From Chloroflexota bacterium (GTDB lineage: Bacteria > Chloroflexota > Anaerolineae > 4572-78 > J111): a DNA stretch of 12,096 nt. Where the stretch lies: assembly GCA_003695455.1 (NCBI GenBank), contig RFJF01000406.1:1-12096 (forward strand), in the 5' to 3' direction. Each line of letters begins with the position of its first letter. The first letter of the stretch is position 1. Position numbers and translations under genes: made by a program. The notes beneath the pieces were generated by a model. It worked only from the letters and a program-made list of their open reading frames with translations, was not told the DNA's origin and did no database searches. Positions 3 through 10,238 of the stretch are shown here, in pieces.

Positions 3-692
3 TTTGGGGTAGAAATTCGGTGGGTGTTTGACGTGCCGCGCAACCTCAGCTTTAAAAACGGCGGCTACGATCCCTTTCCGGCGGAAAAAACGCTGGAATT
101 TGCGCTGGCCGGGCGCGAGCGCGGGGTGGTCGGTTTTGGGCTGGGTGGCTACGAGGTCGGTACGCCGCCGGAGCCGTTTGCTCACGCCTTTGCCGCTGCC
201 AAAGAAGCCGGTCTGCTGTGCGTGCCCCACGCCGGAGAAACCGAGGGGCCGGCCAGCGTGTGGGGGGCTGTCAACCACCTGCACGCCAGCCGGATTGGCC
301 ACGGCGTGCGGGCCATCGAGGACCCCAACCTGCTGGCCCTGCTCAGAGAACGCCAGATTCCGCTGGAAATCAACCCCACCAGCAACATCTGTTTGGGGGT
401 GTACCGCCGGCTGGCCCAGCACCCGCTACCACATTTGGATAAAATGGGCCTGTGCGTCACCGTTAACAGCGACGACCCGCCGCTGTTCAACACCAGCCTC
501 AACCGGGAGTATCAGCTTTTGCCGGACGAATTCGGCTACCAACAGGCAGATGTGGTGCGCATTGCCCGCACCGCGTTTGAGGTGTGCGGCGCAGAAGCAC
601 CGGTCAAAAATCGTCTGCTGGCCGAGTTTGACCGGTGGAAAAACAATCTTCAGGGAGACAGACCCAACCTGCGGCACGGCAACGATGAATGA
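3..692 (+). CDS. add: Adenosine deaminase family protein (5' end outside window)
   Basis: The reading frame is open to the left edge; codons before the GTG at 24 read FGVEIRWVFDVPRN, normal family sequence, so that GTG is internal and the true start lies upstream. About 230 C-terminal residues are present. Visible motifs in order: HAGE (228-239; metal ligand or substrate-contact His and the catalytic Glu), RIGHG, the PTSN segment, and NSDDPPLF with the Asp pair that completes zinc and substrate binding. By family knowledge the enzyme is a cytoplasmic TIM-barrel zinc hydrolase that deaminates adenosine or deoxyadenosine to inosine or deoxyinosine in purine salvage. The SDDPPLF form argues against the adenine-deaminase branch, which tends to have SDDPAYF. 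The same superfamily includes 6-aminodeoxyfutalosine deaminase of menaquinone synthesis, which cannot be excluded. The gene converges on the SBP cassette. Family assignment is sure; exact substrate is not. Confidence 0.9.
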   Translation, partial: FGVEIRWVFDVPRNLSFKNGGYDPFPAEKTLEFALAGRERGVVGFGLGGYEVGTPPEPFAHAFAAAKEAGLLCVPHAGETEGPASVWGAVNHLHASRIGHGVRAIEDPNLLALLRERQIPLEINPTSNICLGVYRRLAQHPLPHLDKMGLCVTVNSDDPPLFNTSLNREYQLLPDEFGYQQADVVRIARTAFEVCGAEAPVKNRLLAEFDRWKNNLQGDRPNLRHGNDE

Positions 693-845: not shown

Positions 846-2144
846 TTACTGGCGGCTTGCGTCAATTTCCTGCTGGTACAAAACGGCAATGGGGCCCATA
901 GCTTCTTTGGGGGTTTTAACGCCGGTGGCAATATCCTTTAGGGCTTGCCGGTAACGGTCACGGAGTTCAACAGAAATGCCGGTCTGGGCCTCAAATACAC
1001 CAAATTCTACCAGGCGGGTAATTGTTTGCCGATTCGGTGAAGTGGCATAACTGGTGTTGCTGCGGCGCAACCCCGGAGCCAACTGGTAACCCGGTACATC
1101 TTTTGCCACTTGGGGGCCGGTAATGTAGCGGGCAAATTGATGCGAAGCTTTGAGCTTGGCCGGGTCATCACTGTTATATACCGCAAACATACCAAATGCG
1201 CCGGTGGTTACAAGCTGGCCCAGTTGGCCAGTAGGCAAAGGTAACACGTTTACCGGAAAATTCTCTTCTTCCAGTTCGGTGAGAAAAGCCGGCATGCTCA
1301 TAAACATGGCGGCCTTTCCATTTTTAAACTGGGCTTGCGCATCGGCCTGCGATACCGTTTCCGGGCCGGGCGGGGTGACTGAATGTTTTTGGTACAGGTC
1401 GGCAATTTTTTGCAGACCAGACAAGGCTTCGGGCTGGTTCTGAACAAAACGCCGGCCATCGGGACTGAGAATACGCCCGCCATCAAGGTAGAACAGCGGG
1501 TAATACTGCATAGACCACCACACCGAAGGCGCGGTAAAACCGTACACTTTGCTGCCGTCATCCCGTTGGTAGGTAAGCTGTTCGGCAGCGGCCAAAAATT
1601 CATCCCACGTCCAGGGGTTTTCAATAGTGGGAAAAGCCACGCCTCGCTCGGCAAAAATATTGGTATTGGCAAACACAGAAAAAGCCACCACCCACAGAGG
1701 CCAGGCGTAGATTTTGCCATCCACTGTAGCCGTCTCCAGAGCGTTGGGGTAAAAATCGGCGCGGTCTTCCGGGGTGAGAAACGGCTCAAGATTGGATAGT
1801 TTGCCGGTTTTGCTCCATTTTGCCAGGTCATCCGGCCGGATATTAAACACGTTGATGTCTGTACCGGCGTTAAAGGCTGCTTCCATTTGAGCATCGCCGG
1901 CGCTATCCCAGGGAACGCCAATAATTTTGACCTTGACATCCGGGTAAAGCTGTTCAAACGCCTGAACAGCTTTGGCGTAGTTTACCGAGGTAATATCTGT
2001 ACCACCTTCTACATAGCCGCGTTTGTAAAAGGTAATCTCTACCGGCTCACCGGCAGCTGGTTGTACAGGATTTGCTCTTGCACATGAAGCCAACACCAGA
2101 ATAATGCCCCATAACCACGACATTTTCCAACATTTACGTGCCAT
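846..2144 (-). CDS. Family 1 extracellular solute-binding lipoprotein, probable sugar binder (SBP-A)
   Basis: The 432-residue protein begins with a basic segment (R3, K4, K7), a hydrophobic stretch and a lipobox ending at Cys21 (VLASC), so it should be lipid-anchored outside the membrane. The fold signals are those of the CUT1-type family 1 binding proteins: an early beta strand (VEITFYKRG), the DINVF turn, VDGKIYAWP, NPWTWDEF, and a Trp/Tyr-rich stretch (WWSMQYYP) likely to stack on a sugar ring. It is about 80% identical, without gaps after residue 30, to the protein at 4554-5846. It is the last gene of the cassette, 44 bp after the kinase stop; its ribosome binding site is weak, so coupling or readthrough from the kinase gene is likely. 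No permease or ATPase gene is adjacent. Met8 is a possible later start but would remove the basic residues of the signal peptide. The ligand is unknown. Confidence 0.88.
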   Translation of the reverse strand: MARKCWKMSWLWGIILVLASCARANPVQPAAGEPVEITFYKRGYVEGGTDITSVNYAKAVQAFEQLYPDVKVKIIGVPWDSAGDAQMEAAFNAGTDINVFNIRPDDLAKWSKTGKLSNLEPFLTPEDRADFYPNALETATVDGKIYAWPLWVVAFSVFANTNIFAERGVAFPTIENPWTWDEFLAAAEQLTYQRDDGSKVYGFTAPSVWWSMQYYPLFYLDGGRILSPDGRRFVQNQPEALSGLQKIADLYQKHSVTPPGPETVSQADAQAQFKNGKAAMFMSMPAFLTELEEENFPVNVLPLPTGQLGQLVTTGAFGMFAVYNSDDPAKLKASHQFARYITGPQVAKDVPGYQLAPGLRRSNTSYATSPNRQTITRLVEFGVFEAQTGISVELRDRYRQALKDIATGVKTPKEAMGPIAVLYQQEIDASRQ

Positions 2145-2188
2145 ATTCCATATTCTCTATTTTGATATATTTCCGGTGATCCTGCTTG

Positions 2189-4537
2189 TCAGGTTCGGGC
2201 ATCCGGTATCAGGCGTTCCGCCAATTCCTGTTTAATGCGGTTAATCTGAAAATTATCAGTCAGGTCCTGCAAGTAGAAAATAAAGCTCTGGCTGTCCGGA
2301 TACATTTGCGCAATTTCAGGTAACTGCCGGCGTAATTCACCAATATCGCCAATGCGGGCAGCCTGATACAACTGCTCCAGCGCCTCTACCGGCGGCGAGA
2401 CAAAGGGGGTCCGGCCGGCAAGCTCCGGCAAAAATTCCGGTGGACGGCTGAATTGGTACTCCAGCCGCAACAGGTTTCCCAGCAACGCCAGTAATTTGCC
2501 GGCATCCACGGGTTTCTGCAAGAACACGTCGGCTCCCGCCTGCACGCTTTTGTCTCCATCTTCCGGGAATACGCTGGCAGACGAGGCAACAATGACCAGA
2601 TTTTTAAATGCTTTTTGCCCGCGCAATTGCGAAATTACCGCAAACCCGTCCACTTCCGGCATTTTTAAATCAACCACCACCACATCGGGCTGCAACCGTT
2701 CCACCAGCGCCAGACCTTCTCTGCCACCAGCGGCCTCGGCAACCTCAAATCCCACCGGCTCCAACAATCCCCGGAACACCATCCTATTCTGGGCATCGTC
2801 ATCAATCACCAGCACCCGGGGCGGTGCGTCACCCAGCACCCGGACCACGTGCCGGTGGTTGGTTGCCGTCACAGCCGGCTCTGCCACATCATCTGCCACA
2901 GGCACGGTCAAATCAAACCAAAAACGGCTGCCCTGACCCGGCCGGCTGTCAACCTGGATTTTGCTGCCCATCAACTGCAGCAAATCCTGGCTGATGGTCA
3001 GACCCAGACCGGTACCGGCAGCCCGCTGCCGCGCATCGCCGGCTTGCTCAAACGGATGAAAAATGGCCGCCAACCGGTCCGGGGGAATGCCGGGGCCGGT
3101 ATCTTCTACTGAAAACTGAAGCGTAACCCGCCCATCAGCGGGGCGTTCCGGCTGGGTAACGGCAAAAGTGATTTGCCCGGTGTGGGTAAACTTTGTAGCG
3201 TTGCCCAGCAAATTAAGCAGGATTTCCCGCAACCGGGTTTCATCGGCGCGGATAGCGGCGGGCAGGTTGGTATCCGGGCGATAATTAAATCTCAGCCCTT
3301 TTTGTTCGGCGCGCATGCGGCTGATGGACACAACGCCGTTGAGAAAATACGGCAGCCGAACGTTTTGCTCAACCAGTTCAAGTTTACCGGCTTCAACTTT
3401 AGCCAGATTCAGCACGTCGTTAATCAGCGTGAGCAAATGTCTGCCGCTCTGTTCAATGACATCCAGCCCGTGCCGCTGTGACTCCGTGACCGACTCATCC
3501 CATTTGAGAATTTGGGCGTAACCCAGAATGCCGTTGAGCGGCGTGCGGAGTTCGTGGCTCATGTTGGCCAGAAACGCGCTTTTGGCGCGGCTGGCCGCCT
3601 CGGCGGCCTCTTTGGCTTGCCGCAACGATTGCTCGACCTGCTGCCGCTCTGTGATTTCCTGCGAAAGTTGGCGGTTGGCGGCGGCCAGTTCGGCGGTGCG
3701 CTCGTTGACCAGCTCTTCCAAATGCTCCTGATAGCGAGACAATTCGGCCGACATGGTGTTTAGCGCGTACGCCAGCCGGCCAATCTCGTCATCTCTGTGA
3801 GTAATGGGCAGGCGTGTGTTCAGGTTTCCGGCCCGGATTGATTCCACACCGGCGTGGAGTACTGTTAGCGGCGAAATGATACGATTGACCACCTGGCGTG
3901 TCATACCAACCGACAAGACAAGCACTAACCCCACCACAAACGTTAGGACTGCTACCGTAGTTTGCACCACCCGACGCGACCGCATACGGGCGGCTTCCAC
4001 TTGTTTTGCTTCTAGTTGTTCAAATTCCTGAATGGCGCGGTGCAGGGGAGTCTGGTAATTTTCAGTGAGTACGGCCAGTTCGCGGGCCGTATTTGGCCCC
4101 AATTCACCTTCGGCGTCAAAGGCAGCCAGTACCCGATCGGCTTGCGGCCCAAAGGCCAGTAAATATTGCCGCACCTGCCCAATAGCAATGCTTTCATCAA
4201 TATCGCCGTTACGGGTTGCCGCAATCACTTGCTGCAACATGCGGTTCAGTTTGTCCTGTTGGGCCACAATCTGGATGCGCAGGCTGGGCTGCTCGGTGGG
4301 GTTAACCGTGTAGCGGCGCACCATATCGGTGAGTACCAGGCTTTCTGACCGGATCCGGGTGCTGAGTGCGGCGGTTTCTACGCGCTCTGTCACCTGCACT
4401 AACGTGTTATCGGTAAACTGCACGGCCCACACCGACGCCGCCGCCAAACTTACCGCAATCAGGACCAGCAGACCAAAACTGATGGTCAGCCAACGGGCCA
4501 GTGGTCGTTTAAAAATTTGCCGTGTGGTTTTTAACAT
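2189..4537 (-). CDS. Membrane hybrid sensor histidine kinase (HAMP-HisKA-HATPase-receiver)
   Basis: This is a 782-residue protein. Order: TM1 about 17-38; extracytoplasmic, predicted all-helical region about 40-190; TM2 about 190-212; HAMP about 213-266; coiled coil about 265-320; HisKA with SHELRTPL and phospho-acceptor His328; HATPase with N-box Asn446, DTGPGI (479-484) and GTGLGL (508-513); receiver about 573-690 with acidic pair Asp579/Asp580, phospho-acceptor Asp623 and Lys675. A C-terminal extension (about 691-782) contains no histidine, so it is not an Hpt domain; similar helical tails occur on other hybrid kinases. The ATG at 4537 is preferred over one at 4642, which would overlap the upstream gene: GGGGGTGG lies just before it and the gap to the upstream stop is 16 bp. 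All catalytic residues are present, so it should be active. The kinase lies between two solute-binding protein genes, which points to ligand sensing through them. No DNA-binding response regulator is in the window. Confidence 0.93.
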
Positions 4538-4553
4538 TGTCCGCCACCCCCGG

Positions 4554-5846
4554 CTACTGCCGGGCGGCATCAATTTCCTGTTGAAACAGGGGGGCAATTT
4601 CATCCATTGCCTCTTGTGGAGATTTACTGCCGGTAGCCACATCCCTGAGGGCTTGCCGGTAGCGCTCGGTCAATTCAACAGACATGCTAACCGGCGCCTC
4701 AAAGATGCCAAATTCAACCAGTTGGGTGATAATTTTGCGGTTGGGCGAGGTGGCGTAACCGGTGTTGCTGCGCCTGAAACCGGGGGCCAGTTGGTAACCC
4801 GGCACATCTTTTGCCACCTGAGAGCTGGTAATGTAGCGGGCAAATTCATGCGAGGCTTTGAGCTTGGCCGGGTCATCGGTGTTGTACACGCCGTACATAC
4901 CAAACGCGCCGGTGGTTACCAGTTGCCCCAGTTTGCCCACAGGCAGCGGTAAAACCTTCACCGGAAAATCTTCTTCTTCCAGTTCAGCGATGAAGGCCGG
5001 CATGCTCATAAACATGGCGGCCTCTCCATTTTTAAACTGTGCCTGCGCGTCGGCCTGCGATACCGTATCCGGGCCGGGCGGCGTTACGTGGTGCTTCTGG
5101 TACAAGTCGGCAATTTTTTGCAGGCCAGACAGGGCTTCGGGCTGATTTTGGACAAAGCGCTTACCGTCGGGGCTAAAAATGCGCCCGCCGTCCATATAGA
5201 AAATAGGGTAGTACTGCATACTCCACCACACCGAAGGCGCGGTGAAGCCGTACACCTGGCTGCCGTCATCCCGTTGGTAGGTGAGTTGTTCGGCAGCAGC
5301 CAGAAATTCATCCCACGTCCACGGGTTGTCAATTGAAGGAAGGTCAACCCCACGTTCGGCAAACATATCGGTGTTGGCAAAGATAGAAAAGGCCACCACC
5401 CAAATGGGCCAGGCGTAAATTTTGCCATCAACGGTGGCTGCCTGCAGGGCGTTGGGGTAAAAATCGGCGCGGTCTTCCGGGGTGAGAAACGGCTCAAGGT
5501 TAGAAACTTTGCCTTCTTTGCTCAAGCGGATCAGGTCACTGGGCCGCACACTGAACACGTTGATATCCTGGCCGGATTCCAGCGCGTCTTCCATCATCTT
5601 ATCGCCGTCGGTGCTCCACGGCACGCCCACAATTTTGACCGTGATGTTGGGGTACCGTTTTTGGAACATTTCAACGGCTTTGGCATTTGTCACCGAGGTG
5701 ATGTCTGTGCCGCCTTCAACGTAGCCGCGTTTGTAAAAGGTAATTTCCACCGGTTCGCCGGCGGCCTGTGGAGATACTCCCGCGCAGGCTGCCACTAAAA
5801 AGCCAACAAACAACAAGCTTAGAATTCGCCACGTTGCGCTCTTCAT
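4554..5846 (-). CDS. Family 1 extracellular solute-binding lipoprotein, probable sugar binder (SBP-B)
   Basis: The 430-residue protein starts with Lys2, a hydrophobic segment and a lipobox ending at Cys21 (LVAAC), so it is a predicted lipoprotein facing the outside of the membrane. It shows the same family 1 binding-protein signatures as SBP-A (EITFYKRGYVEGG, DINVF, NPWTWDEF, WWSMQYYP) and aligns to it without gaps for about 400 residues at about 80% identity by hand count. The clearest differences cluster at about residues 50-105 and near the C-terminus. It is the first gene of the cassette and is followed after 16 bp by the kinase. The ATG start is supported by AGGTGA a few bases upstream and by a promoter candidate at 5914-5942. 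No transporter permease is nearby, so a role as the periplasmic or surface sensor of the kinase is more likely than a lone uptake function, although it could feed a permease encoded elsewhere. Confidence 0.9.
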   Translation of the reverse strand: MKSATWRILSLLFVGFLVAACAGVSPQAAGEPVEITFYKRGYVEGGTDITSVTNAKAVEMFQKRYPNITVKIVGVPWSTDGDKMMEDALESGQDINVFSVRPSDLIRLSKEGKVSNLEPFLTPEDRADFYPNALQAATVDGKIYAWPIWVVAFSIFANTDMFAERGVDLPSIDNPWTWDEFLAAAEQLTYQRDDGSQVYGFTAPSVWWSMQYYPIFYMDGGRIFSPDGKRFVQNQPEALSGLQKIADLYQKHHVTPPGPDTVSQADAQAQFKNGEAAMFMSMPAFIAELEEEDFPVKVLPLPVGKLGQLVTTGAFGMYGVYNTDDPAKLKASHEFARYITSSQVAKDVPGYQLAPGFRRSNTGYATSPNRKIITQLVEFGIFEAPVSMSVELTERYRQALRDVATGSKSPQEAMDEIAPLFQQEIDAARQ

Positions 5847-9463: not shown

Positions 9464-10168
9464 TCAGTCTCCAATTTCAAGCATAATCCGCTTGTTGATT
9501 TTGCCTTTGCTTTTGTAACCGGCGACGGTTATTTTGCCCACTTCGCGGGTGTTGGCTACGTGTGTGCCACCGTCGGCCTGCAAATCCAGCCCTTCGATTT
9601 CTACGGTGCGCACCTGCGTGATACCGGGCGGCAGCAGGTTGATTTTGGTGCGAATCAAATCCGGTATCTGGAAGGCTTCTTCGCGGGGCAGAACTTTGAC
9701 GTGGATGGGCCGGGCGGCGGCAACTTCCACGTTCAGCTTGGCCTCAATTTCACCGACCAACTCTTTTTTGAGCGTTTCAAACTCAAAATCCATCCGGCCC
9801 TTGAGCACGTCCATGTTGCCGCCGGTCACCTGCGCGCCGTAATCTCGCCAGACCACGCCGCATAAAATATGGAAGGCCGTGTGGGTGCGCATCAATTTGT
9901 AGCGGCGCTCCCAGTCAATTTTACCGTGGAGGGTGTCACCCTCGGCGGGCAGGCTGCCGTCCAGCCAGTGCCAGATGTGCTGGCCCTGCCGCTTGACTTT
10001 TGTCACCGGGGTATTGTTCAGCCAGCCTACATCGCAGGGTTGGCCGCCGCCGCCGGGATAAAAGGCGGTTTTATCGAGCGCCACGGCGTTTTGTTCGGCG
10101 TCTACCGCCACCACCACGGCGTCAAATTCCTTTAAATAAGCGTCGGCGTGAGCCAGTAGTTCGGTCAT
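9464..10168 (-). CDS. alaX: AlaX-type alanyl-tRNA editing protein
   Basis: The 234-residue protein matches the free-standing AlaX editing domains related to the editing and C-terminal region of AlaRS. Family members hydrolyse mischarged Ser- or Gly-tRNA-Ala in trans. Visible motifs: the N-terminal TAFYPGGGGQP segment, the metal-binding HTAFH (His96 and His100), and DGGTHVANTREVG with His203. The residue at the usual third zinc-ligand Cys of CGGTH is Asp199 here. The ATG at 10168 is chosen over one at 10234 because GAGGAGA precedes it at good spacing and the homologous domain starts there. The size fits the medium AlaX class. It is the first gene after the T-box leader and lies 76 bp before ileS, so it is probably isoleucine-regulated despite belonging to an alanine-tRNA editing family. 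Its substrate here is open: Ser/Gly-tRNA-Ala by family, or another mischarged tRNA by context. Confidence 0.88.
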   Translation of the reverse strand: MTELLAHADAYLKEFDAVVVAVDAEQNAVALDKTAFYPGGGGQPCDVGWLNNTPVTKVKRQGQHIWHWLDGSLPAEGDTLHGKIDWERRYKLMRTHTAFHILCGVVWRDYGAQVTGGNMDVLKGRMDFEFETLKKELVGEIEAKLNVEVAAARPIHVKVLPREEAFQIPDLIRTKINLLPPGITQVRTVEIEGLDLQADGGTHVANTREVGKITVAGYKSKGKINKRIMLEIGD

Positions 10169-10189
10169 GAGTCTCTCCTCATATAAAGT

Positions 10190-10217
10190 AAGGATAAAGG
10201 CGGAAGGATGAAGGATA
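10190..10217. repeat. Heptamer array (AAGGATA type) in alaX leader
   Basis: Four consecutive 7-mers, AAGGATA, AAGGCGG, AAGGATG and AAGGATA, lie just upstream of the alaX ribosome binding site. In the mRNA they form a pyrimidine-rich stretch. Confidence 0.65.
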
Positions 10218-10238
10218 AAAACAACCTCCCACACTGTG

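Follow-up and report, generated by a model that had tools for sequence, protein, structure and literature searches.

Two importer-type binding proteins around one hybrid histidine kinase in a Chloroflexota bacterium: a probable permease-free variant of three-component sensing systems

The window analysed here, i.e. the whole 12,096-bp contig RFJF01000406.1 of a Chloroflexota bacterium (contig C726 of genome G000, a 4.38-Mb draft in 929 contigs that is 87% complete), holds a three-gene cassette in which two lipid-anchored solute-binding proteins (SBPs), SBP-B and SBP-A, flank a hybrid histidine kinase. The genes lie on the minus strand in the order SBP-B, 16 bp, kinase, 44 bp, SBP-A (Table 1), and the view of their surroundings is limited to the contig. 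That all three run in the same direction and lack a permease gene had been claimed in a preliminary description, and the map of open reading frames (ORFs) and a whole-genome permease search with permF as query, which found no permease gene on the window contig, agree with it. The cassette is probably a variant of the known three-component SBP–histidine kinase systems with an additional SBP in its own genome, and SBP-B and SBP-A are likely to be former binding proteins of an ATP-binding cassette (ABC) importer that now serve a dedicated sensor kinase.

Recurrence of the binding protein–kinase pair

A profile of the kinase ectodomain was searched against 396 genomes of the class (E<=1e-10, at most seven candidates scored per genome) and matched in six of them, five strongly (E<=1e-59), namely the window's own genome and genomes G387, G357, G106 and G129. 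A family SBP lies directly upstream of the kinase in all five strong loci, and permF/permG were found beside none of the five within the stretches read, which comprised 18 kb for G387 and G357, 4.9 kb for G106 and 4.4 kb for G129. The gene set of a CUT1 importer, an SBP gene with two permease genes, was thus seen neither in the window nor at the four other kinase-linked loci, while the gene neighbourhood of three-component SBP–histidine kinase systems, an SBP gene adjoining a membrane kinase gene and kept in relatives, is present in the window and in the four other genomes. The pair without a permease therefore recurs outside the genome in which it was described, and its pairing of SBP and ectodomain kinase is kept across three families of the class. 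The SBP–kinase–SBP order, in turn, finds no support as a general design, as it occurs in the window only among the loci read (G387 and G357 have a single SBP); the conserved unit is one SBP followed by the kinase.

Matches to the SBP profile at E<=1e-100 were obtained in 18 of the 396 genomes, of which five are kinase-linked, 12 carry both CUT1 permease genes, and one (G150) is cut by the contig end and has neighbours of the transporter type. The expectation that permeases are missing beside related SBPs is hence borne out for the kinase-linked SBPs (0/5) and fails for their sisters (12 of 13 genomes, one cut off). In one of the 12 permease-linked genomes, G119, kinase-core matches without the ectodomain lie >1 kb past the permeases. 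The sixth ectodomain match, in G299, is weak and belongs to a kinase array with no SBP-A/B match in 14 kb.

The distribution of the pair across relatives is patchy. The 23 genomes that share their genus, family or order with the window genome gave no SBP match at E<=1e-40, and those of them listed in the ectodomain search gave no ectodomain match. Wider ectodomain searches returned known loci only (2/56 genomes in the order of G357, 2/5 in that of G106), a phylum-wide one gave 2/400 genomes (the own genome and a weak match in G427), an SBP search around G106 gave 5/119, all already known, and scans of contigs, run with SBP-A or the ectodomain alignment as query, turned up no relative. Two ectodomain searches of the protein database yielded five and three non-self kinases; for three of these the longest contig has exactly the length listed for an SBP row (9697, 6888 and 5383), and a length of 8054 is common to three SBP rows, a hint that the genes may be linked.

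Origin of the binding proteins and of the kinase

Both SBPs belong to SBP_bac_1/SBP_bac_8 (E 1e-28 to 1e-31; 101–111 bits vs cut-offs of 26 and 27), and their lipobox-type cysteine, C21, does not vary across 40 aligned sequences. By blastp the two share 76% identity, with a non-synonymous divergence (dN) of ~0.15 and a synonymous divergence (dS) of ~1.0–1.2; the duplication is thus no recent event, and constraint seems to act on both copies. SBP-A clusters with P0003/P0005/P0007 (support 97/95, 43-row tree), and a sister relation of SBP-A and SBP-B, as expected from duplication within the lineage, is not the best tree, although the approximately unbiased test does not reject it (p-AU 0.25); third-position identity between the two is patchy, which could mean gene conversion. 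As a diverged extra copy, SBP-A probably offers the kinase a ligand identical or related to that of SBP-B.

In an 80-row tree the six kinase-linked SBP rows form one side of one branch (SH-aLRT, an approximate likelihood ratio test, 99), against a mean of 5.4 changes after shuffling (0/500 as low; one outgroup row has a very long branch), which is consistent with a single capture of the SBP by the kinase. The 31-row clade that holds them is supported 100/100 in the 43-row tree, and by these phylogenies the kinase-linked clade is nested among permease-linked SBPs.

The neighbours of the sister SBPs point to a ligand class. A NamZ-like gene is found in 8/13 transporter-type loci (tblastn; query assigned to NamZ by Pfam) and on the same contig in a ninth, G208, and NagA (TIGR00221 above cut-off), GntR-UTRA and PIG-L genes occur in 2/13, 4/13 and 5/13, respectively; none of the four was found in the five kinase-linked loci. 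Since transporter-linked relatives are often near NamZ, this gene neighbourhood suggests a peptidoglycan amino sugar as the ancestral ligand. Genome-wide, no NamZ turned up in G000, G387 and G357, and one is present in G106 and G129. In the former three genomes the best permF match does not exceed 38% identity, and in the latter two it stands at 47%, as compared with 65–83% in 11 non-self transporter loci, and the 47% match is part of a separate NamZ-linked importer, the SBP of which is ~32% identical to the window SBPs. Fifteen near-fixed differences, including W to Y at 144 and 351, distinguish 31 kinase-clade from 28 permease-clade SBPs (19 of the 28 assigned by tree position rather than context), and therefore the ligand of the kinase-linked SBPs may have changed. 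The Chloroflexota CUT1 importer loci L026, L027 and L045–L055, which lie near NamZ, NagA, GntR-UTRA and PIG-L, suggest a peptidoglycan amino-sugar uptake system in their own right.

The kinase was delimited assuming the ATG 16 bp past SBP-B as its start; a longer in-frame ORF begins at 4642. Pfam and hydropathy place a first transmembrane helix (TM1) at residues ~16–41, the ectodomain at ~42–187, TM2 at ~190–213 and HAMP at 217–267, followed by the Pfam domains HisKA (318–384), HATPase_c (432–544) and a single receiver (575–685). The phospho-acceptor H328, the N, G1 and G2 boxes and the receiver motif DLKMP are present, and the tail contains zero histidines past residue 690, therefore no histidine phosphotransfer (HPt) domain is evident. 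No gene for an adjacent cognate response regulator is found on the contig; AioX and Cua have one, but such a gene is no prerequisite for functioning in a similar way, and a receiver domain is part of the window kinase itself. The helical extracytoplasmic domain of the preliminary description reappears in a predicted model, which is all-helical, an up-down four-helix bundle between the two TM helices (predicted local distance difference, pLDDT, 80.4; predicted template modelling score, pTM, 0.60). A Pfam scan of the ectodomain gave no convincing family, 4HB_MCP_1 appearing on one of six ectodomains at E 0.0096, below the curated cut-off, and a PDB sequence search gave two rows, the best at E 1.3.

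Kinases with this common ectodomain carry different cytoplasmic halves. The ectodomains are 42–86% identical outside near-identical pairs and more alike than the catalytic cores in 42/60 pairs, a count inflated, like its complement, by the near-copies G387, G357, P0127 and P0128 having been counted separately. The best match of the window core in G357 is another kinase, which adjoins a different SBP, and not the cassette kinase of G357; the 11 cassette cores do not form one clade among 19 others (three changes; p-AU 0.0004; G106 on a long branch). The kinase architectures span HAMP-HisKA-HATPase-REC at one end and forms with PAS and GAF domains at the other, and the G106 kinase has no receiver.

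Mechanism, known systems and competing explanations

By analogy with known systems, a lipid-anchored SBP would hold a sugar, perhaps a peptidoglycan amino sugar, and dock in this state on the membrane-anchored four-helix ectodomain; ligand-dependent docking would shift TM2 and HAMP and set both the autophosphorylation at H328 and the phosphotransfer to the receiver, and the phosphoryl group might pass onward to an HPt or response regulator partner.

The known system closest in SBP type is CuaDSR of Ruminiclostridium cellulolyticum; the closest in ectodomain fold is XylFII–LytS of Clostridium beijerinckii, and the closest in its hybrid kinase is TorT–TorS of Escherichia coli. To our knowledge, TorT is not a CUT1-type SBP and has no dedicated transporter; XylFII, a xylose-binding protein, belongs to an SBP class other than that of the window SBPs. 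Genes are associated in 10/11 characterised SBP-activated kinases (PMC11113362), and in CuaDSR the kinase gene adjoins one for a sugar-binding lipoprotein other than the SBP used in transport, which binds the extracytoplasmic domain of the kinase in a two-hybrid assay (PMC10384115). CuaS, however, is a non-hybrid kinase with its own regulator, CuaR, and its ectodomain is modelled with beta sheets; the system has a single sensing SBP, and the importer lies in the same genome (PMC10384115), whereas the window has a hybrid kinase, a predicted helical ectodomain, no adjacent regulator and two SBPs. LytS likewise has a four-helix bundle (5xsj; PMC6321045), yet the window ectodomain has no PDB sequence match below E 1. 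TorS is a hybrid kinase with an all-helical periplasmic part that is activated via a binding protein (PMC8534201, PMC6321045), but its ectodomain consists of two stacked four-helix bundles as opposed to one in the window kinase (PMC8534201). The TorS equivalog TIGR02956 scores 406.5 bits on the window kinase against a cut-off of 676.5, covering residues 166–691 only and leaving out the ectodomain, and TorS is not among the 50 fold matches listed for the ectodomain, which in itself excludes nothing. AioX–AioS–AioR resembles the cassette in the co-option of a transporter SBP family (PhnD type) for signalling and in its gene beside the kinase gene, and differs in SBP family, ligand and a kinase partner with its own regulator (PMC5908839). 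Two binding proteins also serve one membrane receptor in Helicobacter pylori, where AibA and AibB act with TlpB, a chemoreceptor instead of a kinase, and the ligand is autoinducer-2 (PMC6321045). The literature found on SBPs and histidine kinases in Chloroflexi or Anaerolineae describes no such cassette, as far as its available text goes.

A bolder reading, which we regard as doubtful, is that a peptidoglycan amino-sugar importer SBP was captured once in Chloroflexota to serve a new ectodomain family as its detachable detector, that the SBP–ectodomain module then moved between unrelated kinase backends, and that in the present lineage one kinase is contested by two diverged presenters, so that the cell would compare two cell-wall-derived sugars or two concentration ranges and import neither. 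Several observations weigh against the likely reading of the cassette as a dedicated SBP-fed sensor. The G106 and G129 contigs leave most neighbours out of view at 4.9 and 4.4 kb, and draft genomes, the own one included, may hide permeases. The core is at least as alike as the ectodomain in 18/60 pairs (the inflated complement mentioned above), including G387-type vs P0123–P0125, and in a mirror-tree comparison of six pairs, which is not discriminating, SBP distances follow the core (r 0.87) better than the ectodomain (r 0.74). The four-helix bundle is a widespread fold, many examples of which take up small ligands directly, and the resemblance to LytS is to be read accordingly; the fold relatives MCP2201, PcaY, NarQ and Vc1313 are described as binding small ligands. 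Adjacency can also mislead, as AgtS and AruS showed no activation by those nearby SBPs that were tried (PMC11113362).

These fold relatives and cautionary cases likewise favour direct binding of a small ligand by the ectodomain, with some other ground for the co-expression of the SBPs, e.g. scavenging or ligand buffering; as the SBP and ectodomain families occur together in 5/5 strong loci although the cytoplasmic half varies, this is quite unlikely. The SBPs may instead still feed a CUT1 importer encoded elsewhere, with the kinase sensing the same sugar otherwise or regulating the importer, or they may do both, as SBPs with roles in transport and signalling are known for chitin in V. cholerae and citrate in B. 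pertussis (as cited in PMC10384115). At E<=1e-5 the own genome yields 18 permF-like matches, and the sister SBPs are transporter-linked; the best of these matches, however, is 38% identical vs 65–83% for true partners, and a permease gene adjoins none of the five kinase-linked SBPs, which makes this account unlikely. That the cassette has lost its function and is decaying, a thought invited by the draft state of the genomes, is highly improbable given the intact reading frames, lipobox and kinase motifs, the dN and dS values of the SBPs, and the persistence of the pairing in three families.

If the SBPs have indeed passed from import to a sensor kinase, the cassette makes it possible to trace how part of an importer became part of a receptor: transporter-linked sisters survive in related genomes, so that the residues differing between the groups can be listed. 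The NamZ/NagA neighbourhood of the sisters supplies a concrete first ligand class, and with two paralogous presenters flanking a single kinase, competition between ligands becomes open to test.

Other genes and other kinase-adjoining binding proteins

Table 1. Features of the window, with coordinates on the contig
Feature	Coordinates	Strand	Size and basis
SBP-B, CUT1-type lipoprotein; first cassette gene, conserved position upstream of kinase	5846-4554	-	430 aa; SBP_bac_8/SBP_bac_1; same position in 4 other genomes
Hybrid histidine kinase, TM-ectodomain-TM-HAMP-HisKA-HATPase-REC and C-terminal tail without histidine	4537-2189	-	782 aa; Pfam, hydropathy, motifs
Kinase ectodomain, residues ~42-187, predicted all-helical, common to cassette kinases	3977..4414	-	Alignment, class search, model
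SBP-A, CUT1-type lipoprotein; last gene, extra copy	2144-846	-	432 aa; SBP_bac_1/8, blastp, dN/dS, tree
Adenosine-deaminase-like ORF, without 5' end	3-692	+	Translation read by eye
Alanyl-tRNA-synthetase-like editing-domain gene, beside ileS-like gene; appears ordinary	9464-10234	-	Family search
ileS-like gene	in the window
GT4 glycosyltransferase gene	in the window

Among 118 other kinase matches, 28 kinases in G000 and G357 were examined, with neighbours chosen by eye and by a lipobox flag before Pfam, and three of the 28 adjoin an SBP gene without a transporter gene in view, short contigs hiding some neighbours. In G357, an SBP_bac_1 lipoprotein gene with a dCache hybrid kinase gene (C107; L101:4458-8635) and a Phosphonate-bd lipoprotein gene with a HAMP hybrid kinase gene (C51; L102:1894-6158) are each followed by a receiver-bearing gene, and in the own genome an NMT1-type lipoprotein gene adjoins a dCache-GAF histidine kinase gene (C475; L107:3650-7548). 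A fourth kinase-adjoining SBP, of the NMT1 type, has an ABC ATPase next to it. In G427 (C528; L099:4231-16000), a run of sensor-type genes is interleaved with Peripla_BP_6 and NMT1 SBP genes, and a weak match to the window ectodomain profile comes from the 4HB_MCP_1 ectodomain of the gene that immediately follows the Peripla_BP_6 SBP.
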